A DNA stretch of 64,000 nt from contig NZ_AMZQ01000005.1 of assembly GCF_000313615.1 (NCBI RefSeq), positions 62,001-126,000 on the forward strand. The letters run 5' to 3'. The notes under the pieces are model-generated. The model had not been told where the DNA came from. It did not search any database and saw only the letters and a list, made by a program, of their open reading frames with translations. Source of the DNA: Campylobacter showae CSUNSWCD. Its GTDB lineage: Bacteria; Campylobacterota; Campylobacteria; Campylobacterales; Campylobacteraceae. Made by a program: the position numbers and the translations under genes. This document shows, piece after piece, positions 2 through 34,515 of the stretch (positions are counted from its first letter, which is position 1; each line of letters begins with the position of its first letter).

Positions 2-874
2 TTTAAGCTTGTTCAAAGCGTGAGCTCCAAGCAGACTTTTGAAAATGCGGAATTTGATTTTAAAAACGCGGCGCTAGCCGAAAACAGGGCGCATCTGGCG
101 CTAAATTTGGCGCAAAAACGGCTCGAAGACACGCGGCTACTCGCGCCTTTTGACGGGACGATCTCGAGCAAGAGCATCGAGGTCGGCGAGGGCGTGGGCG
201 GCGTAGCGCAAAAGCTGATGTCTATATTTTCCTATCCAGAGGTTAAGCTCAAGCTTAGCTTTGATGAGAAATTTAAAGACCGCGTAAAAATAGGTAGCGA
301 ATTCGTCTATAAAATAGACGGCGAAAATGAGGAAAGACGCGGTAAAATCAGCCTCATCTACCCGACTATCGACACGAAAAACGGCAAAATTTACGCCGAA
401 GTGCAGGCGCGAAATTTGACGCCTGGGCTTTTTGGCGAGGGATATATCGTCCCAGACTCGCAGGTTGAAACGGAAGCCGAGCCTAAAAAAGAGGACGCAA
501 ATAAAACATTTGGGCTTAAATTTGACGGCTTTAAAAACGGCGGGCTTGCGAGCGCGAAATTTGACGCAGAAAAAACTAGCCTTGGCGTAGCTTGGTTTTC
601 AAATTTGACGCTGCAAACAAAATGCAAGGTAAATTTGAGCTCAAATTTAGCGAATGTAGTTAAATTTGACGCCGTCGCGAAAAAAGCAAATTTGATGAAA
701 GAGGCGGACGACGGATTAAATTTAGCGCACAAAAAAGGCGACATAAATTTAAACGCCGAATTTAACTTGGCGAAAATTTTGCTCACCGCTAAATTCCAAA
801 CGCTTTTTGCAAAGCAGGGCGGACGGGTAAATTTGACGCAAAAGCCCGTTTTAGCGAAGGCGCGAAATGTATAA
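2..874 (+). CDS. RND efflux periplasmic adaptor (HlyD/HefB-like), 5' end outside window
   Basis: Periplasmic adaptor that joins an RND pump to an outer-membrane channel. The reading frame is open to the left edge, so the true start lies upstream; an internal GTG at 20 is only the first possible start in view. The visible part begins in the helical hairpin (Ala/Leu/Asn-rich coiled coil), followed by the second lipoyl half (LEDTRLLAPFDGTISSK, then VEVGEGV-like sequence), and the beta-barrel ending near PGLFGEGYIV. After that comes a tail of about 130 residues with no family resemblance, rich in KFD, NLT and NLA, encoded by at least ten AAATTT words between about 515 and 835. The stop overlaps the permease start by 8 bp, so the two genes are one operon. 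Identity as adaptor is firm; the substrate is unknown. Confidence 0.85.
   Translation, partial: FKLVQSVSSKQTFENAEFDFKNAALAENRAHLALNLAQKRLEDTRLLAPFDGTISSKSIEVGEGVGGVAQKLMSIFSYPEVKLKLSFDEKFKDRVKIGSEFVYKIDGENEERRGKISLIYPTIDTKNGKIYAEVQARNLTPGLFGEGYIVPDSQVETEAEPKKEDANKTFGLKFDGFKNGGLASAKFDAEKTSLGVAWFSNLTLQTKCKVNLSSNLANVVKFDAVAKKANLMKEADDGLNLAHKKGDINLNAEFNLAKILLTAKFQTLFAKQGGRVNLTQKPVLAKARNV
515..840 (+). repeat. Cluster of AAATTT/AAATTTGA words inside the adaptor tail
   Basis: At least ten AAATTT hexamers, most extended to AAATTTGA or TCAAATTTGA, are spread through the last third of the adaptor gene. They encode the KFD, NLT and NLA patches of the tail. The same words fill the intergenic regions of this window, so this stretch looks like intergenic-type sequence that has been kept in frame. 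It is not a tandem repeat: spacing between words is irregular. Confidence 0.6.
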
Positions 875-3800
875 ACTAGCCATAAATCGCCCGATTACGA
901 CGCTGATGTTTTTCATCGCGCTCGTATTTTTCGGCGCGATGTCGCTTCTTAGGATGCCGGTAAATCTCTTTCCCGAGGTCGTCATCCCGCTGATTAAGAT
1001 CACGACCTACGCACCGGGCGACATGAGCCTCATCGAGAGCAGGGTCACTAAAAAGATCGAGGACGAGGTCTCGACGATAGACGGTATCAAAAAGATTAGG
1101 TCTTATACATTTAACAACCTCAGCATCGTCACGGTCGAGTTTAATCTCAAGAAAAACATCGACGTTGCCGCAAACGACGTGCGCGACAAGGTCGCAAAGG
1201 CAAAGCTGGACGTCCAGCCCGAGATAGAAAAAATCAACAGCGACAGCGGCAAGGTGGCGAGCTTTTTTGTTAGCCGAAAGGACGAAAATTTAACCGCGCT
1301 CATGCAAACGGTAAAAGACGAAGCAAAGCCGTTTTTACAGCGCGTAAAAGGCGTGGGCAAGGTCGATGACAAGGGCTTTTTGGAGCCTGAGATTAAAATT
1401 TACCTAGATCCGTTTAAGCTCGATAAATACGCCCTAACCGCGGCCTCGGTCATAAATATAATCAAATCACAAAATTTAAAAGCGCCTTTAGGAAAGCTGG
1501 AAAACAGCAAGTTTGAGATATTTTTAAAGAGCGAATTTGACGCTAAAAGCGTGCAGGAGCTAGAGGAGATACGCCTGCAAAAAGATGTGTTTTTAAAAGA
1601 CGTCGCGCGCATAGAGCTATCTCATCACGACACCGACGCCGTAGCGATGTATAACGGCAAGCGCGGAGTGCTACTCGACGCTATAAAAGTAAGCGGCGCA
1701 AACACTATCGAGACGATAGACGCGCTCAAGGCTAAAACGGACGATCTAGCGGCAAGACTAGGCGAGAACTACGAAGTAGAGCGGGTTTATGAAAAGAGCG
1801 AAAGCATCCTAAAGCACATAAATCAGGTCAAATTTGACATGATGCTGGGCGTCGCGCTCACGGTCGTCATCGTCTTTTTCTTTTTGCGAAGCTTTAGCGC
1901 GACCATCATAGCCGCGCTCGCGATCCCAGCTAGTATCGTGGGGACGTTTTTTATCATCGACGTTTTGGGCTTTGATCTAAACCGCCTCACGCTGCTGGCT
2001 CTCACGCTTGGTATCGGTATATTTATCGACGATGCGATCGTGGTCGTGGAAAATATCTCCAAAAAGATGCAAGAGGGCGATAGCAATCCGCTAAAAGCTA
2101 GCTTTGAGGGCGTGCGCGAGATCGCCTTTAGCGTGCTTAGTATTAGCGCGGTGCTGCTTTGCGTGTTTGTGCCGATTGCCTTTATGGAGGGCATCATTGG
2201 GCAGTATTTTAACTCCTTTGGCATGAGCGTGAGCGGCGGTATCGTGGTGTCGTTTTTGGTTTGCATTATGCTGATACCTAGCCTCGCGGCGAGGTTTTTG
2301 AGTGAGGGCGAGAGTAAATTTTACCGCGTGACGGAGCCATTTTTTGAGGCGCTTGAGAGCGGTTATGAGCGGCTTTTGAAGCTTATTTTGAGGTTTAAAA
2401 CTGCGTTTGTTATACTCACTTTGGGCGTGCTGGCTCTTTGTATGAGCCTAGCCGGCAAGGTCGGCATGGACTTTTTACCCGTCGAGGACGAGGGCCAGTT
2501 TGAGATATTTTTAAAAGCAAGCCCGGGTATCTCGGTCGAAGCTATGAGCGCGAGAGCTAGCGAGGTCGTGCGCGAGGTAGATAGCGATCCGCGCGTCGAG
2601 TACTCCTATATGATCGCTGGCTACACGGACTCAAAGGACGCGTACAAGGCTAAAATTTACGTCCGCTTAAAGGGCTTTGAGTCGCGAAAAGAGCGCCAAA
2701 CGCAGATAATGGACGAGTATAGAAAAAAGCTTAAATTTGACGATCTCTCGGTCAAGGTTCTGCAGATACCATACGTCGATACGGGCAGCGACAGCGAGCC
2801 GGTGCAACTAACGATCACGGGAGATAGCCTAGAAAAGCTAGACGAAATCCTGCCAAAAGCCATCGCCATGGTGCGCGCGATAGAGGGTACGACGGATGTG
2901 GGCAGCGATAACGAAGACAAGATAAACGAGCTGCAAATCAGCGTAAACAAAGACAAGGCCAAGCGCCTAAGCGTCGATCCTAGCGCGGTCGCGCAGGTGA
3001 TATATGCGTCCTTTGGGCAAAATAGGCTAGGTAGCTTTGATAACGGCGACGCGCAGTACGATATGATACTGAGGTTTGACGACGAGTACCGCAAGGACGT
3101 GCAGGCGCTACAAAAACTAAAGATCAAAAACGCCCACGGCGAGAGTATAAGCCTAAGCGCGGTGGCGGAGTTTAAGACGAGCAAGACCTTTTCTGTGATA
3201 AACCGCTTTAACAAACAACGTCAGATCAGGATCGTCGCAAACGTAGATAACGTCCCGCTAGGTGCCGTGCAAAAGGGTATCGACGAAAATATCGGTCAAA
3301 TTTTGCCTGAGGGCTATGACTACGTGATGACGGGCTTTATCGAGATGATGAACGACACGAACGCGGCCTTTGTCTTTACGATCAGCCTTAGCGTCGTGCT
3401 CATCTATATGATCCTAGCCGCGCTTTACGAGAGTTTTATTTTGCCGCTCATCATCATGATCTCGATGCCGCTTGCCTTTGGCGGCGTAGCGGTCGGGCTG
3501 TATCTTAGCGGCAACTCGTTTAGCTTGTTCGTCATGGTCGGCGCGATCTTGCTTTTTGGTATGGTGGGTAAAAATGCGATTTTGGTCGTGGATTTCGCCA
3601 ATCGCTACGCAAACGAGGGCGTGGAGCTAAACGAAGCCATTGTGCGCGCGGGCGTTAAGAGGCTACGAGCGATACTGATGACTACTTTTGCGATGATATT
3701 TGCGATGCTGCCGCTAGCGCTTAGTAGGGGTGCTGGGTACGAGGGCAACTCCCCGATGGCGATCTCGGTGATCTCGGGGCTTATTAGCTCGACACTGCTA

Positions 3801-3887
3801 ACGCTACTTGTTGTGCCTGCACTCTTTGGTGCGGTATATAAGATAGATAAATTTGTGAGTAAAATTTATAAAAGGGAGGAAATTTAG
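867..3887 (+). CDS. RND family efflux permease (HefC/AcrB-like inner-membrane pump)
   Basis: Proton-driven inner-membrane pump of the AcrB/MexB class, 1006 residues, the usual length. An N-terminal transmembrane helix (YKLAINRPITTLMFFIAL) precedes the first porter loop. The TM4 proton-relay pair is present in GIFIDDAIVVVENI (Asp388, Asp389), and the matching TM10 lysine is in GMVGKNAILVVDFA (Lys902). The duplicated porter and 6-TM halves are both complete. ATG overlaps the adaptor stop by 8 bp, indicating translational coupling. No outer-membrane channel gene follows; it is either upstream of the window or the pump shares a TolC-like protein. Substrate cannot be read from sequence; Hef/Cme-type pumps export bile salts, dyes and antibiotics. 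Confidence 0.93.
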   Translation: MYKLAINRPITTLMFFIALVFFGAMSLLRMPVNLFPEVVIPLIKITTYAPGDMSLIESRVTKKIEDEVSTIDGIKKIRSYTFNNLSIVTVEFNLKKNIDVAANDVRDKVAKAKLDVQPEIEKINSDSGKVASFFVSRKDENLTALMQTVKDEAKPFLQRVKGVGKVDDKGFLEPEIKIYLDPFKLDKYALTAASVINIIKSQNLKAPLGKLENSKFEIFLKSEFDAKSVQELEEIRLQKDVFLKDVARIELSHHDTDAVAMYNGKRGVLLDAIKVSGANTIETIDALKAKTDDLAARLGENYEVERVYEKSESILKHINQVKFDMMLGVALTVVIVFFFLRSFSATIIAALAIPASIVGTFFIIDVLGFDLNRLTLLALTLGIGIFIDDAIVVVENISKKMQEGDSNPLKASFEGVREIAFSVLSISAVLLCVFVPIAFMEGIIGQYFNSFGMSVSGGIVVSFLVCIMLIPSLAARFLSEGESKFYRVTEPFFEALESGYERLLKLILRFKTAFVILTLGVLALCMSLAGKVGMDFLPVEDEGQFEIFLKASPGISVEAMSARASEVVREVDSDPRVEYSYMIAGYTDSKDAYKAKIYVRLKGFESRKERQTQIMDEYRKKLKFDDLSVKVLQIPYVDTGSDSEPVQLTITGDSLEKLDEILPKAIAMVRAIEGTTDVGSDNEDKINELQISVNKDKAKRLSVDPSAVAQVIYASFGQNRLGSFDNGDAQYDMILRFDDEYRKDVQALQKLKIKNAHGESISLSAVAEFKTSKTFSVINRFNKQRQIRIVANVDNVPLGAVQKGIDENIGQILPEGYDYVMTGFIEMMNDTNAAFVFTISLSVVLIYMILAALYESFILPLIIMISMPLAFGGVAVGLYLSGNSFSLFVMVGAILLFGMVGKNAILVVDFANRYANEGVELNEAIVRAGVKRLRAILMTTFAMIFAMLPLALSRGAGYEGNSPMAISVISGLISSTLLTLLVVPALFGAVYKIDKFVSKIYKREEI

Positions 3888-4094
3888 GGCCCAAATTTGA
3901 GCTTGCCTTGGGCGAGACCTGCGTAAAATTTGCGCTCGGCAGTTGCTCGACCGTTGGGCGCTAATTTTGCTTTGAGACCACATTAAATTGATTTCCGTAA
4001 TTTAACGTAACAAATTTGTCGTTTTGCATTCGTCTGCCTCTGCTAAACCCTGTTTTTAAATATCTAGCGCAAAATATAGATTCCTTATTTATTT

Positions 4095-4136
4095 GATAAT
4101 GGTTTTAGAAATTATTAACTTTTAAAATGTTAAAAT
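4095..4136 (+). promoter_or_regulatory. Probable Fur-controlled promoter for the PepSY/TonB receptor pair
   Basis: GATAAT (4095-4100) and ATTATTA (4111-4117) form an imperfect AT-rich dyad that resembles a Fur box. Just downstream an extended -10 is readable as TGT-TAAAAT (4128-4136), about 44 bp before the GTG start. The two genes that follow are classic iron-uptake genes, which is the main support. The rest of the 292-bp gap (3888-4179) shows only AAATTT words and no gene. Confidence 0.5.
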
Positions 4137-4179
4137 CCGCGCCGATTTAGAGTAAATTTTAAAAGGGCAAATTTTAAAC

Positions 4180-5277
4180 GTGAATATACTTGACAAAAAG
4201 GCAATGTATAAAATTCATACCTATATTTCGCTGATATTTTGCATTCCGCTAGTTATCGTTTGCTTTACGGGCTCTGTTTTGGTTTATAAAGACGAGATAA
4301 ATAATATCTTAATGCCAGGCGTCATCTACGTCGTAAAAAATAGCGACGAAAACGAGCAGAAAAGTAGATTAAAATTTGACGAGCTAAGAGAAAAAATAGA
4401 AAAAGAGTATCCGCATCACGAGATCGTAGGGTGGAATATCGACGCAGATCCCCAAAAAACGGACAAAATTTGGCTGTTAAAGCACGGAGCGGGCGAAAAA
4501 GAGTGGGCGTGCGTGTATCTGGATGCTTTTAGCGGAGAGATAAAAAGCGACCTCGTGCCGCACGATAGCGGATTTATCGGCGTTATAACCGAGCTTCACG
4601 AAAATTTGCTTCTTGAAAAAAGCGGTCAAATTTTGCTTGGGCTAACGGCGATTTTTGCTTTTATTATTTCGATCAGCGGCTTTATCGTTTACCGAAACTT
4701 TTGGGCAAATTTGCTGCGTCTTCGGTTTGCGCGCATGACTACTTTTATGAGCGATTCGCACAAATTTATCGGCGTTTTTTCTACGCCCGTTATCTTTGCG
4801 GTCGCGCTTAGCGGGGCTTGGTGGGAGCTTAGGTTTATGTTTATGCCACCTTTTGATAATTCAAAATTCGTAATCGGGCCGGAAATTTATGACAAAAATA
4901 TCTCTATCGACGCCCTGGTACAAAGAGCGGCCTCGGATATGCCCGGATTTAGGACGCACTACGTTAGCTTTCCGTTTTTTGATGGCGCAAATATCACGCT
5001 TTACGGGCAAAAACCGAGTCAAGGTTTCCTGCATAGCCAGTACTCAAGCACCGTTACTTATGATAAAAATAGCGCAAATTTAATCGATGTAAAAGATATA
5101 GAGCTAGCAAGCAAAACGGATAAATTTTTATCGACGTTTAGGCGAGCTCACTACGGCGACTATAACGCCGCGACCAAGTTTATCTGGTTTTTGTGCGGTT
5201 TAGCGCCGCTTGCGCTTAGCGTTTCGGGGATTTATTTATGGATAAAAAGATCAAATTTTAAAAGGGGAAAAAGATGA
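4180..5277 (+). CDS. PepSY-associated transmembrane protein, iron-uptake linked
   Basis: Inner-membrane protein of the PepSY_TM (PiuB-like) family, 365 residues. Membrane segments are visible at about 12-35 (SLIFCIPLVIVCFTGSVLVY), near 150-170, near 195-215 and at the C-terminus (FIWFLCGLAPLALSVSGIYLW). Large periplasmic portions carry PepSY-like sequence. Such proteins usually sit beside siderophore receptors and are thought to help reduce or release iron at the inner membrane. Start chosen as GTG 4180; an in-frame ATG at 4204 would remove only eight residues. The stop overlaps the next ATG (ATGA), so it is co-translated with the receptor. Function in iron uptake is inferred from family and context. 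Confidence 0.82.
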   Translation: MNILDKKAMYKIHTYISLIFCIPLVIVCFTGSVLVYKDEINNILMPGVIYVVKNSDENEQKSRLKFDELREKIEKEYPHHEIVGWNIDADPQKTDKIWLLKHGAGEKEWACVYLDAFSGEIKSDLVPHDSGFIGVITELHENLLLEKSGQILLGLTAIFAFIISISGFIVYRNFWANLLRLRFARMTTFMSDSHKFIGVFSTPVIFAVALSGAWWELRFMFMPPFDNSKFVIGPEIYDKNISIDALVQRAASDMPGFRTHYVSFPFFDGANITLYGQKPSQGFLHSQYSSTVTYDKNSANLIDVKDIELASKTDKFLSTFRRAHYGDYNAATKFIWFLCGLAPLALSVSGIYLWIKRSNFKRGKR

Positions 5278-29456: not shown

Positions 29457-30230
29457 TTAAAACGTCGGGATTATCGCGCCTTTATATTTTTCCTCGATGA
29501 ATTTCTTTACCTCCGGGCTTGTTACGGCTTTATCTAGAGCTTTGATTTTCGGGCTATTTTCTTTACCGACTTTGACCACGACGTAGTTGGTGTACGGACT
29601 ATCTTTGCTCTCAAGCACGAGCGCGTCTTTTGTCGGGTTTAGGTTGGCGTTTAGAGCGTAGTTCGTGTTGATAACTGCGATAGTAACGTCATCTAGCGTA
29701 CGAGGAACTTGAGCGGTCTCGATCTCTTCAAATTTTAGCTTTTTTGGGTTTTCCGTGATATCAAGCGGAGTTTTTAGAGGGTTGTCGTTTAGCTTGATAA
29801 GACCTGCGCTAGCTAGCACGTCAAGTGCGCGGCTCTCGTTTGTCGGATCGTTTGGTATCGCTACGGTGCTGCCGTCTTTTAGCTCTTTGATATCTTTTAT
29901 CTTTTTAGAGTAAACACCCATAGGCTCGAGGTGAACGCCTACGGTTTTAACTAGATGAGTGCCTTTGTTTTTGTTAAATTCCTCAAGATACGGCAGGTGC
30001 TGGAAGTAGTTAGCGTCTAGATCGCCGTCTTCGGTGGCTAAATTTGGAGTAGAGTAGTCGTTAAATTCTTTGATCTCAAGAGTAAAGCCATCTTTTGCAA
30101 GGATTGGTTTTACGACTTCTAAAATTTCAGCGTGCGGAACCGGCGTAGCGCCTACGACGATTTTCTCGGCTGCATTTGCTGCGACTGTTAGGCTTAGAGC
30201 GACTAGAGAGTATTTGAGTAGATTTTTCAT
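29457..30230 (-). CDS. metQ: MetQ-like methionine-binding protein, first paralogue
   Basis: 257 residues, NlpA/MetQ family, the copy closest to the family norm. Signal peptide KYSLVALSLTVAANA/AE, no lipobox cysteine. Motifs: GATPVPHAEILEVVKPIL, DLDANYFQHLPYL, HLEPMGVYSKKIKD, IPNDPTNESRALD, QVPRTLDDVTIAVI, the last two forming the ligand cleft. It should bind L-methionine (and perhaps D-Met or Met peptides) for MetNI. First gene of the metQ cluster; its ribosome site AAGGATAT can be sequestered by a complementary segment upstream, within a leader that also encodes a Met-rich peptide. Confidence 0.88.
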   Translation of the reverse strand: MKNLLKYSLVALSLTVAANAAEKIVVGATPVPHAEILEVVKPILAKDGFTLEIKEFNDYSTPNLATEDGDLDANYFQHLPYLEEFNKNKGTHLVKTVGVHLEPMGVYSKKIKDIKELKDGSTVAIPNDPTNESRALDVLASAGLIKLNDNPLKTPLDITENPKKLKFEEIETAQVPRTLDDVTIAVINTNYALNANLNPTKDALVLESKDSPYTNYVVVKVGKENSPKIKALDKAVTSPEVKKFIEEKYKGAIIPTF

Positions 30231-30233
30231 TTT

Positions 30234-30343
30234 ATATCCTTTTTAAAATTTGGCTAGCATTTAAAAAAGGATATGAGCGGAGGCTCAAATTTCTTTTTAA
30301 ATGCTTAGCAAGACTAAGCGCTTAAAAAGAAATTTGCGCTTAG
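30234..30343 (-). promoter_or_regulatory. metQ leader with competing hairpins, putative attenuator
   Basis: Three structures are readable on the minus-strand transcript. (1) AAATTTCTTTTTAA (complementary arms at 30322-30335 and 30287-30300), a 14-bp perfect stem topped by a CTAAGC/GCTTAG stem (30314-30319, 30303-30308). (2) An alternative pairing in which 30314-30321 (CTAAGCGC) pairs with 30336-30343 (GCGCTTAG), the segment right after the leader-peptide stop; it cannot form together with the tip of (1). (3) An 11-bp perfect stem between 30264-30274 and 30234-30244 that covers the metQ ribosome site. Mutually exclusive pairings beside a small ORF and over the ribosome site are the hallmarks of attenuation. 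No experiment supports it yet. Confidence 0.55.
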
Positions 30344-30345
30344 CG

Positions 30346-30405
30346 TTAGTCTTTCGACGACTTAAGTTGAGTGAAGCGACGCATTTCGCACATATCTGAT
30401 TTCAT
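30346..30405 (-). CDS. 19-residue leader peptide upstream of metQ
   Basis: ATG at 30405-30403 preceded by AAAGGAT at good spacing opens a 19-codon frame: MKSDMCEMRRFTQLKSSKD, then TAA. Three of the first eight codons are Met and one is Cys. It lies between the promoter (-10 TACAAT, 30445-30440) and the hairpins that control access to the metQ ribosome site. By analogy with amino-acid leader peptides, translation speed through the Met/Cys codons could set which hairpin forms. It could also be a coincidental ORF; the strong ribosome site and position argue against this. Confidence 0.5.
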   Translation of the reverse strand: MKSDMCEMRRFTQLKSSKD

Positions 30406-30439
30406 TTTCTATCCTTTCTTTGTAAAATTAATTTCGCGC

Positions 30440-30445
30440 ATTGTA
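30440..30445 (-). promoter_or_regulatory. -10 box of the metQ leader transcript
   Basis: On the minus strand TACAAT follows a T/A-rich tract (TTTTTTTTTAAACTTTTTTT), the usual Campylobacter sigma-70 arrangement. Transcription would begin near 30433, some 28 bases before the leader-peptide ATG, giving a metQ leader of about 200 nt. This places the metQ cluster under its own promoter, downstream of arsR. Confidence 0.5.
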
Positions 30446-30482: not shown

Positions 30483-30818
30483 TTATCTTAGACTTTTTAT
30501 GACGCCTCTTGCATTTTCTGAGTTTTTGGCTGCTTTTTCCTCTAAAATATTTTTTAAACATTCCAAAAAATTTGGCAAACAGCAAATATCAACCGAGTAA
30601 AAAACATTAAGTCCGGACTTCTCGCTTTTTAAAATTCCCCCATTTTTTAATACCCCAAGATGCTTTGAAACCGTTGTTTGTTCTTTGTTTAAAAGCTCGC
30701 AAATTTCACCTACGCTCATCTTTTTTTCACCTAAAATCTCAACTATCCCAATCCTAAGAGGATGAGCTAAAACTCTCATAAATTCGCTTTTTAGCGCAAG
30801 AATATCAACATATTGCAT
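30483..30818 (-). CDS. arsR: ArsR-family metalloregulator
   Basis: Winged-helix repressor of 111 residues. The DNA-binding helix-turn-helix is LLNKEQTTVSKHLGVLKNGG (about 43-62). Cysteines at 40, 79, 80 and 87; the Cys79-Cys80 pair with Cys87 (SVDICCLPNFLEC) forms a plausible trithiolate site for As(III), Sb(III) or an organoarsenical, at the C-terminal dimer interface rather than the alpha-3 helix. Divergent from arsP, with a shared 101-bp promoter region. It should repress arsP (and itself) until the metalloid binds. The metal specificity is inferred from the partner permease. Confidence 0.87.
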   Translation of the reverse strand: MQYVDILALKSEFMRVLAHPLRIGIVEILGEKKMSVGEICELLNKEQTTVSKHLGVLKNGGILKSEKSGLNVFYSVDICCLPNFLECLKNILEEKAAKNSENARGVIKSLR

Positions 30819-30865
30819 TTTTATACCTTTTTTATGATTTTAACTTAAAAGAGCTAAATTTATAC

Positions 30866-30894
30866 TTGACTATATTCCTATATTAGTATATAAT
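30866..30894 (+). promoter_or_regulatory. arsP promoter with canonical -35 and -10, overlapping ArsR operator
   Basis: TTGACT (30866-30871), 17-bp spacer, TATAAT (30889-30894): a textbook sigma-70 promoter. Campylobacter promoters usually lack a -35, so this looks foreign. CTATATT is directly repeated at 30870-30876 and 30878-30884 inside the spacer, an AT-rich zone where ArsR is likely to bind. Confidence 0.65.
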
Positions 30895-30919
30895 CATATA
30901 AAAAATTTAAAGGTAAAAA

Positions 30920-31879
30920 ATGCTCGATCTTTTTAATCAACACAATATATTTGAGTTTATCAAATTTTTCATACTTTATTTTACAGAGATTTCACTACTA
31001 TTTTTTTGCGTCTCTTTTTTAGTATTTATCGTATCTGAAAAATTTAGTCAAAAACTCAAAAAACACCTTATAAGCACAAGAATTTCAAGCTTTATCAAGG
31101 CGTTTTTGGTTGGCGCAATTACGCCGTTTTGTTCGTGCTCTACTATACCGCTTTTAAATGGGTTTTTAAAAAGCGGCGTATCGCTTGGCGTTAGTAGCGT
31201 ATTTTTGTTAAGCTCTCCGCTTGTTAATCCTGTAATTTTAACGCTTCTTTTTATGAGCTTTGGGTTTAAATTTGGCATTATTTATTTTACAGTCATTTTC
31301 ATCTCATCGCTTGCTTTTGGTCTTTTGTTATCAAAAGCAGATCAAAATCTATTTTTAAAAGATGATTTTTTAAAACCAAAATTTAGCCCAAACAATCCAA
31401 CTAAAAGTTTTGTTTTTACACCCGTTAATCAGACGCAAGCTTGTTCTTGCAAGGATATAAAAAATAGTAAAAATATTTACAAAATGGCGCTTTTAAACTC
31501 GGTAAAAGAGTATAAAAAGCTATTTTATTACATACTGCTTGCGATGTTTATCGGCGCCGCTATGCACGGATTTGTTCCGCAAAAGCTTATCTCAAACTAT
31601 CTTGGTTCTAGCGACATCACCTCGATATTTATTTCGGCATTTTTTGGAATTTTACTCTATGTTAGAGTAGAAGCGCTAGTGCCAATTGGCTTAGCGCTTC
31701 TTACCTCGGGTGCTAGCGCGGCCGCATTTGGAGCGTTTGTAATAACGGCGGCAGGGGTTAGCCTGCCGGAAATCATACTTCTTAATAGGTTTTTTAAGCC
31801 AAAATTTATGGCAATTTTTATCGCTTTTATCTTATGTGTAGCATTAGCATTTGCAATGTTTTTAAAATCATTTTTTTGA
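30920..31879 (+). CDS. arsP: ArsP-like organoarsenical efflux permease
   Basis: Inner-membrane permease of 319 residues, DUF318/ArsP family, about eight transmembrane segments. The family signature TPFCSCSTIP at 68-77 holds Cys71 and Cys73 in the membrane, the pair tied to trivalent organoarsenic transport in Campylobacter ArsP. A cytosolic loop carries a further CSC (about 174-176). It would expel methylarsenite or reduced aromatic arsenicals. Paired divergently with arsR. Its end overlaps the convergent metI end by 12 bp, and the AT-rich composition differs from the surrounding met genes, consistent with insertion into this locus. A related permease for other metals (DUF318 is broad) is the main alternative. 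Confidence 0.8.
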   Translation: MLDLFNQHNIFEFIKFFILYFTEISLLFFCVSFLVFIVSEKFSQKLKKHLISTRISSFIKAFLVGAITPFCSCSTIPLLNGFLKSGVSLGVSSVFLLSSPLVNPVILTLLFMSFGFKFGIIYFTVIFISSLAFGLLLSKADQNLFLKDDFLKPKFSPNNPTKSFVFTPVNQTQACSCKDIKNSKNIYKMALLNSVKEYKKLFYYILLAMFIGAAMHGFVPQKLISNYLGSSDITSIFISAFFGILLYVRVEALVPIGLALLTSGASAAAFGAFVITAAGVSLPEIILLNRFFKPKFMAIFIAFILCVALAFAMFLKSFF

Positions 31880-33528: not shown

Positions 33529-34515
33529 TTATAAAATTTCACGCCGTAGCTCATCGGCGCTCTTTGGCGAAAGAAGCGCCGGAGCGATGTCAAACACACT
33601 AAATGCGCCACTCTCACCTCTTTGCGCCAAACGATAGGCTGCTCTGGCGTAGGCAACGAGCACACTAGCGGTAAATTCGGGATTTGAGTCAAGCTTTAGC
33701 GAAAACTCGATCAAATGTTTGTTTTCGCCGCGCTCGTCCGTCGCTCCGCTTCGCAAAACAAATCCTCCGTGAGGGATGCCGCCATGCTCCTTTTTGAGCG
33801 TTTCAAGACTTACGAAATGCACGCTCGTGTCGTAGTCGGCGAAGTAATTGGGCATCGTTTTTATCTCTTTTTCGATGCGCGCTTTATCGGCGCCCTCTTC
33901 GGCTACGACATAGCACTCGCGCAGGTGTTTTTCGCGCGTAGTTAAATTTGGGTTTTCGCCCGCGCGGACTCGCTCCAAGGCGCTTTCTATCGGTACGGTG
34001 TATTGGCGCGCATCCACGACGCCCTCGATCCTGCGGATAGCGTCTGAGTGGCCTTGACTCACGCCTTTGCCCCAAAACGTGTAGCTGCTGCCGTTTTCTA
34101 GCACACTCTCGCCAAATAGTCTATTTAAAGAAAATAGCCCCGGATCCCAGCCAACGGCGATGATGCCTACGTTTCCGCCTTTTTTAGCGGCGGCGTCTAC
34201 CGCGGCGAAGTGCTCAGGGATTTTCGCGTGCGTATCGAAGCTATCGACGACGTTAAATTCCTTTGCAAACTCGGGCGTCTGAGTCGGCAGATCCGTCGCG
34301 CTACCGCCGCAAAGAACTAAAACGTCAAATTCGCCCTTGTGCGCTAAAATTTCATCCGCGCTAAATACAGGTGCGCCGCATGTTTTTACTTCGATTGGAT
34401 TTCTGCGACTAAAAACTGCCAAAAGCTCTAAATCCTTGCTATTTTGCGCAGCAAGCTCTACGCCGCGACCTAAATTTCCATATCCTAAAACTGCTATTTT
34501 TATTTTTTCGCTCAT
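33529..34515 (-). CDS. ddh: meso-diaminopimelate D-dehydrogenase
   Basis: NADPH-dependent enzyme (EC 1.4.1.16) that makes meso-DAP directly from tetrahydrodipicolinate and ammonia, bypassing the acylated branch of lysine synthesis; it can also run in the reverse direction. 328 residues, normal length. N-terminal Rossmann start IAVLGYGNLGRG, FSRRNP cofactor loop, DSFDTHAKIPEH, VGWDPGLFSLNRLF and GKGVSQGHSDAIRR in the substrate domain, HGGFVLRSG near the C-terminus. It leads the ddh-metN-metI unit, linking DAP/lysine and methionine, both from the aspartate pathway. Few epsilonproteobacteria are expected to use Ddh, so transfer is possible. Confidence 0.9.
   Translation of the reverse strand: MSEKIKIAVLGYGNLGRGVELAAQNSKDLELLAVFSRRNPIEVKTCGAPVFSADEILAHKGEFDVLVLCGGSATDLPTQTPEFAKEFNVVDSFDTHAKIPEHFAAVDAAAKKGGNVGIIAVGWDPGLFSLNRLFGESVLENGSSYTFWGKGVSQGHSDAIRRIEGVVDARQYTVPIESALERVRAGENPNLTTREKHLRECYVVAEEGADKARIEKEIKTMPNYFADYDTSVHFVSLETLKKEHGGIPHGGFVLRSGATDERGENKHLIEFSLKLDSNPEFTASVLVAYARAAYRLAQRGESGAFSVFDIAPALLSPKSADELRREIL

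Follow-up and report, generated by a model that had tools for sequence, protein, structure and literature searches.

How might methionine uptake be controlled in bacteria devoid of MetJ and of the SAM-I riboswitch? Searches of 48 genomes of the genus to which Campylobacter showae CSUNSWCD belongs returned neither MetJ (PF01340; 0/48) nor SAM-I (RF00162; 0/48), with positive controls that worked, as the original prediction on this locus had anticipated. Other classes of SAM riboswitch were covered by an Rfam scan of the window, the 64,000-nucleotide stretch of C. showae DNA analysed here, in which no family reached its gathering score; ten matches obtained between positions 30150 and 30480 up to an E value of 1 consisted of nine microRNA precursors and one sRNA, all far under their gathering scores. 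Upstream of a metQ gene in this window lie a short open reading frame (ORF) with Met and Cys codons and a series of competing hairpins, taken by the same prediction for an attenuator. We consider it likely that this leader and the five-segment RNA relay that follows it constitute a cis-acting, sulfur-amino-acid leader-peptide attenuator acting mainly on the translation of metQ. In a genus without MetJ or SAM-I, the element represents a concrete and conserved candidate for the control of methionine uptake.

Organization of the leader-metQ region

The region is located on the minus strand between an ArsR-family gene and metQ1, and its features are as follows, the promoter hexamer and both Shine-Dalgarno (SD) sequences being assigned from the nucleotide sequence.

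33498-31868, minus strand: metI and metN, upstream of the leader; the best NCBIfam matches are MetI (200.5 bits, cut-off 212) and MetN (291.0 bits, cut-off 499.7), both below cut-off
30818-30483, minus strand: ArsR-family gene
30445-30440, minus strand: hexamer TACAAT resembling a -10 box, candidate promoter for transcription of the leader
30416-30411, minus strand: leader SD, AAGGAT, 6 nt upstream of the leader ATG
30405-30346, minus strand: leader ORF MKSDMCEMRRFTQLKSSKD, 60 nt from ATG to TAA, with Met at codons 1, 5 and 8 and Cys at codon 6
30344-30336, minus strand: segment 1 (s1), GCTAAGCGC, directly 3' of the leader stop; partner s2
30335-30313, minus strand: segment 2 (s2), AAATTTCTTTTTAAGCGCTTAGT; partner s1 or s3
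30309-30287, minus strand: segment 3 (s3), GCTAAGCATTTAAAAAGAAATTT; partner s2 or s4
30272-30253, minus strand: segment 4 (s4), ATCCTTTTTTAAATGCTAGC; partner s3 or s5
30249-30236, minus strand: segment 5 (s5), ATTTTAAAAAGGAT, holding the metQ SD
AAGGAT from 30241 and ATG at 30230-30228, minus strand: SD and start codon of metQ
30230-29457, minus strand: metQ1, NlpA/MetQ-family substrate-binding protein (PF03180, 326.6 bits, cut-off 27), the gene proposed to be under control
29305-28532, minus strand: metQ2, downstream paralogue (PF03180)
28338-27559, minus strand: metQ3, downstream paralogue (PF03180)

Against TIGR00363, metQ1 scored 213.3 bits, under the cut-off of 228.85. The leader ORF, its ribosome-binding site and its Met and Cys codons were present as originally described. 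The hexamer proposed as a -10 was likewise found, and TACAAT- or TAAAAT-like hexamers occur at the matching place in relatives (alignment A1, by eye), but since a scan for sigma-70-type promoters listed none ending at 30440, the promoter is a candidate assigned from the hexamer itself.

Between metI and the metQ leader, the window also encodes an ArsR/SmtB-family regulator and an ArsP_1-type permease with weak likeness to SaoE (30483-31879), while in two other loci of the collection (L119 and L123) metI is directly followed by the leader and metQ. A diaminopimelate dehydrogenase gene (33529-34515; TIGR01921, 446.2 bits) lies directly upstream of metN. Just 5' of their SD, metQ2 and metQ3 each carry a near-identical inverted repeat, AAAACGGCGTAAAAGCTTTTACCTTTTTAGCG(C/T)CGTTTTT, at about 29365-29325 and 28405-28360 on the minus strand; these repeats look terminator-like and are absent from the list returned by the terminator scan.

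Conservation and Met/Cys content of the leader peptide

Each of the 47 genus genomes read (37, plus 10 added later) had an open leader frame, and the alignment of these leaders, a check called for by the original prediction, revealed Met1, Lys2, Asp4, Met5, Cys6 and Met8 to be invariant. Cys9 is common, the window leader having Arg at this position, and most leaders end in SKD. Codon 7 and codons 9 onward are variable, the conservation of Lys2, Ser3 and Asp4 comes close to that of Met5 and Cys6, and synonymous changes are very few. Changes in leader length stay in frame (12 to 23 residues), with the stop positioned at s1. An AAAGG-type leader SD is conserved in alignment A1.

Met or Cys occupies 3 of the 18 non-initiator codons of the window leader, compared to 101 of 3564 residues (2.8%) in ten window proteins (binomial P 0.014), an excess that, taken alone, is only suggestive. 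Across 31 distinct leader peptides, Met or Cys accounted for 131 of 539 non-initiator residues, or for 100 of 508 upon omission of codon 5, a second count made because the pattern used to collect leaders required Met5. The collecting patterns demanded several conserved codons, and every genus locus fetched for a metQ-leader match fitted them. Given this conservation across 31 distinct peptides, the leader, as judged from the sequences, is far richer in Met and Cys than expected by chance. The locus thus presents what is looked for in the coding part of an attenuator, namely a short ORF preceding the putative target gene (47/47 open frames, each with a predicted SD of its own) and enriched in codons for the amino acids, here Met and Cys, that bear on the downstream gene.

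Co-variation of consecutive segments

Directly after the leader stop, CTAAGCGC (30343-30336, minus strand) is complementary to GCGCTTAG (30321-30314), in competition with the hairpin built on a 14-bp stem (30335-30322/30300-30287); further downstream, an 11-bp stem (30274-30264/30244-30234) covers the metQ SD. These pairings had been predicted at the same coordinates. Both hairpins, 2:3 and 4:5, are present in the unconstrained minimum free energy structure (-54.1 kcal/mol, z -4.1, with 0/200 shuffles equally stable). The original attenuator reading was right in kind but its mechanism was incomplete in that it overlooked the pairing of s3 with s4: it is because s3, the 3' arm of the long hairpin, also pairs with s4, the 5' arm of the SD hairpin, that the leader and the SD hairpin are linked. 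It also lacked three further points described below: the inverted default, the part played by Cys and the second copy of the element, located upstream of the gene for a cystine-type binding protein.

In a swap test on 14 representatives, native partners outperformed swapped ones for 1:2, 2:3, 3:4 and 4:5 (0, 4, 1 and 9 of 20000 permutations as good), whereas for the skipped pairs 1:3, 2:4, 3:5 and 1:4 native partners were no better (10088, 14897, 15032 and 13743 of 20000). The s1:s2 helix was paired in 99.6% of 243 cells over the 27 sequences of alignment A1, its first pair occurring as four types (GC, GU, UA and AU). Five summary measures were computed for the helices, three of which (cells paired, double-change cells and covariation) exceeded shuffles (0 to 3 of 500), and two of which, the numbers of double-change pairs and of pair types, did not for 1:2 (314 and 288 of 500) and 3:4 (299 and 442 of 500). 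One slid version of 3:4 had more double-change cells (19 versus 15). Support for helix 4:5 comes from the swap test. The 27 sequences of A1 and the 14 of the swap test were picked from 45 elements so as to thin near-identical ones. Thus, the consecutive pairs 1:2, 2:3, 3:4 and 4:5, which are mutually exclusive in the manner of attenuator helices, co-vary, and the skipped pairs do not.

Predicted direction and energetics of the switch

Folding was performed on 41 of the 45 elements, three duplicates and one locus (L092) in which no downstream ORF was found having been dropped. Forcing 1:2 in the window element led to the formation of 3:4, leaving the metQ SD 63% unpaired, whereas forcing 2:3 led to the formation of 4:5 and an SD 0% unpaired. 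Exposure of the SD was higher with 1:2 than with 2:3 in 40 of the 41 elements and equal in the remaining one. Pairs 1:2 and 3:4 would thereby free the metQ ribosome-binding site, and pairs 2:3 and 4:5 bury it.

Of 41 elements, 39 have the CTAAG of s1 starting 5 to 7 nt away from the first base of the leader stop, and in two it overlaps this codon. The footprint of a ribosome extends about 16 nt from the P site. Given this footprint and the spacing of CTAAG, a terminating ribosome should cover s1 and a ribosome located at codons 5 to 9 should not. In window transcripts extending up to s4, the probability of 3:4 was 0.87 with s1 free and 0.00 with s1 covered. At the same stage it was larger with s1 free than covered in 27 of 41 elements and smaller in none, exceeding 0.5 with s1 free in 12/41 elements only; the many C. 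concisus-type elements, with values of 0.10 or less, had almost no equilibrium preference for 3:4. Shuffling s1 of the window (20 shuffles) still left an average probability of 0.60, perhaps owing to a second register offered by GACTAA at the leader end.

At equilibrium, the full-length RNA favours the OFF fold in 39 of 41 elements, by 1.4 to 9.8 kcal/mol, even with s1 free. Folding of whole leaders at equilibrium in the free, stalled and terminating states accordingly revealed no direct switch, opening of the SD in the stalled state exceeding 0.3 in 2/41 elements; the four divergent elements scored, which lack a window-type metQ, displayed a small effect at most. Because equilibrium favours OFF, a switch would need a co-transcriptional choice followed by kinetic trapping. 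Heuristic findpath estimates of the barrier from 1:2 to 2:3 in 15 elements ranged from 9.9 to 18.0 kcal/mol with s3 complete, 17.5 to 23.3 with s4 complete and 11.6 to 23.9 at full length, and in transcripts ending at s4 the 1:2 state was the lower one in 9/15 elements. As modelled, these barriers would allow, and support, kinetic trapping of the ON fold.

Distribution, divergent members and a second copy

A DNA search of 60 relatives found the metQ element in C. showae CSUNSWCD and in all 36 other genus genomes of the set. A covariance model of the leader and the 2:3 hairpin was positive in 47 of 48 genus genomes, C. concisus (L009 and L010) being among the carriers; in the sole exception (G085), the coding sequence of the upstream gene ends immediately before metQ. 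Stricter filters, which lose weak matches, were applied in model searches that covered more than 40 genomes, and under these a family-wide search matched 55 of 153 genomes, those outside the genus being 5/14 in sister genus g24, 2/2 in g27 and a single genome, G138; an order-wide sample of 248 genomes gave matches limited to seven in the genus and two in g27. The match in G138 is a different thing, corresponding to the start of a longer coding ORF with no hairpin. A search of 49 genomes of genus g25 with model R1 gave no true match. A dispersed repeat was considered and rejected, the C. showae genome having two full elements.

Divergent relatives of the element were present in two sister genera, with leaders MMSDMCEMRYTS (G087), MKSDMCDMCHLDLD (G088), MKSDMCEMYGLEFSCQMT (G092), MTSEMSDMYEMCSF (G099) and MKSDMSDMYEMCRCLAMRCRK(T/I)F (G154 and G155). 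Their s1 and s2 differ in letters from those of the window yet remain mutually complementary; in a cross-genus swap of s1:s2 over eight elements, 2 of 40320 permutations were as good, native order counted, the corresponding test of s2:s3 being weak (726/40320). In G154 and G155, the SD of the next gene, a 135-residue ORF resembling in sequence the start of MetQ, lies inside s3, yielding a three-segment form of the same sign as the five-segment one. The two forms illustrate how an RNA relay may lengthen and yet keep its sign. G090, which belongs to another genus, has an element almost the same as that of the window (L198, G090:C1:1085600-1086800) together with a fragment of metQ that shares 99% identity over residues 1-165, a degree of identity that makes a recent transfer of the leader and fragment probable. 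In G092 and G099 (L199 and L200), a second small ORF (MISILLNFINSVLNGFIY; MKLNFLTIFINSVLNE) starts in s3, with its SD within the hairpin, between the leader and metQ; it may act as a relay through translational coupling.

Five genomes (C. showae CSUNSWCD, G013, G021, G023 and G030) contain a paralogue of the element, its leader being MKNDMCDMCCCEMKS or MKNDMCDMCCKVKV (MKNDMCDMCC...). It lies upstream of the gene for a family-3 binding protein; the best NCBIfam match of this protein is a cystine-binding protein, at 171.9 bits and hence below the cut-off of 312, and its best solved-structure match by sequence is 2yln. Homologues of this protein occur in 48/48 genus genomes, the five with the element being those at least 84% identical to the C. 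showae protein. In this copy, the leader is retuned from Met toward Cys codons.

Proposed mechanism and alternative explanations

In the mechanism that we propose, a ribosome supplied with charged Met- and Cys-tRNA would reach the leader stop and cover s1 during termination; s2 would then pair with s3 and s4 with s5, burying the metQ SD (OFF). Should the ribosome stall at Met5-Cys6-x-Met8(-Cys9), or should initiation fail, s1 would stay free and pair with s2 as the latter is transcribed, so that s3 would be released to pair with s4, leaving the SD in s5 open (ON). The element would probably let the cell switch the importer on when Met or Cys run short, and, being translational by anatomy, probably acts on translation. 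What was computed here is the conservation, the open frames, the covariation of the relay pairs and the geometry; from these we infer the stalling of ribosomes upon Met/Cys shortage, the trapping of the ON fold, the effect on metQ output and the ON state without translation.

A classical transcription attenuator, in which the target of the leader would be a terminator and not the SD, appears unlikely. Termination has been proposed for LeuL, TrpL and MetL, other leader peptides of C. jejuni (PMC3847290, in the part available), and this species has, at 30287-30274 (minus strand), a terminator-like hairpin of five bp whose tail is rich in T. This site, however, lies outside helices 2:3 and 4:5 and is not visibly conserved beyond the near relatives of the window (A1, by eye). 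No T run follows the conserved long hairpin 2:3, and with neither 2:3 nor 4:5 called by the terminator scan, the exclusive hairpins do not include the terminator that a trp-type attenuator has. The SD instead lies within one of the alternative helices, as in translational attenuators, the conserved last helix 4:5 covering that of metQ and s3 holding that of the next gene in G154 and G155. Arrest by the nascent peptide, in which MKSDMC would sense Met, SAM or Cys in the exit tunnel rather than tRNA charging, would account for the conservation of residues 2 to 4 and the scarcity of synonymous changes. It is nonetheless quite improbable: a peptide of six to nine residues scarcely enters the ribosome tunnel, codons 7 and 9 onward vary, and arrest at codons 5-9 would, through the relay, switch on the importer in the presence of ample metabolite, which is the wrong sign.

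It is still somewhat less probable that the RNA acts as a metabolite riboswitch or thermometer to which the ORF is incidental. The placement of the SD in a stable AU-rich hairpin and the equilibrium preference for OFF would fit such a device, but the frame is kept through in-frame changes in length with the stop placed at s1, and both SAM-I and any Rfam family at gathering score were missing from the searches described above. A 22-bp hairpin would be stable alone, so that the hairpins could merely stabilise or process the mRNA; the co-variation of mutually exclusive helices, across genera too, makes this absence of a regulatory role the most improbable explanation of all.

Relation to known attenuators

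The Met/Cys leader is best regarded as a variant within leader-peptide attenuation, a known kind of control; its proposed wiring, ON when the leader is untranslated, would be unusual. In the trp, his and leu attenuators of enterobacteria, regulatory codons lie in a short ORF and the position of the ribosome picks one of several exclusive helices, and an untranslated trp leader results in termination. In erm-type translational attenuators, a leader ribosome stalled by the antibiotic blocks s1 and frees the downstream SD via alternating helices, which in some cases form a chain of several segments. The present element would share with the erm type the stalled leader ribosome, the freed SD and the alternating helices, and with some of its members the chain of segments, but OFF here would need a ribosome at the stop, and the trigger would be Met/Cys shortage. 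With the trp/his/leu type and, as far as the available part of their description goes, LeuL, TrpL and MetL (PMC3847290), it shares a short ORF containing codons of the relevant amino acid and exclusive helices, the choice among which would likewise depend on ribosome position; it differs in having no conserved terminator and in that s1 stands behind the stop, not among the regulatory codons. Unlike the trp leader, the untranslated leader is predicted to be ON, yielding a sharp prediction: a leader that has lost its start codon should leave metQ ON, not OFF.

More tentatively, with somewhat less than even confidence, we propose that this is a new wiring suited to methionine: s1 behind the stop and an odd-numbered chain of segments (five in the present element and three in that of one genus) would make OFF dependent on a finished leader and render stalling and failed initiation both ON, and one element would read two sulfur amino acids and, when copied to an importer of the cystine type, would have had its codons shift toward Cys. 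Such wiring would suit methionine in that initiation itself needs Met-tRNA.

Leader peptides of mycobacterial and other actinobacterial cys operons resemble the element in being short ORFs that contain Cys codons and precede genes for sulfur amino acids, but they consist of Cys runs and are, in the available part of the report, without conserved hairpins (PMC1262725); the present element combines conserved hairpins with a mixture of Met and Cys codons. A search of open-licence PMC articles returned no description of the Met/Cys leader or relay and no paper on this leader in the C. concisus group; a 2025 study of a C. jejuni sRNA names metQ copies and, in the part available, mentions no leader (PMC11774046), and the word Campylobacter is absent from the main text of a study that compares the regulation of methionine across Proteobacteria (PMC4239095). 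The original statement that no attenuator had been described for a Campylobacter methionine importer was nevertheless mistaken, since CJsORF19 (MMYQMR), located upstream of the methionine-binding-protein gene Cj0772c and found by Ribo-seq in C. jejuni, has been proposed to be a leader peptide (PMC11955535, in the part available); MetL before metBA was proposed in 2013, as were LeuL and TrpL, MetL being reported in that article, as far as available, only in C. jejuni, C. coli and C. doylei (PMC3847290). CJsORF19 is likewise a short Met-rich ORF before a methionine-transport binding-protein gene, and one whose translation was seen, but it has six residues, no Cys and, in the available part of that paper, no RNA relay (PMC11955535). 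Compared by eye, MMYQMR and MKSDMC... had no recognisable sequence relationship. In Campylobacter sp. MIT 97-5078 (L012), a small ORF, MMTQMR, located at -120 from metQ and followed by an inverted repeat, is unrelated to the window leader and, from its sequence, looks like a relative of CJsORF19.
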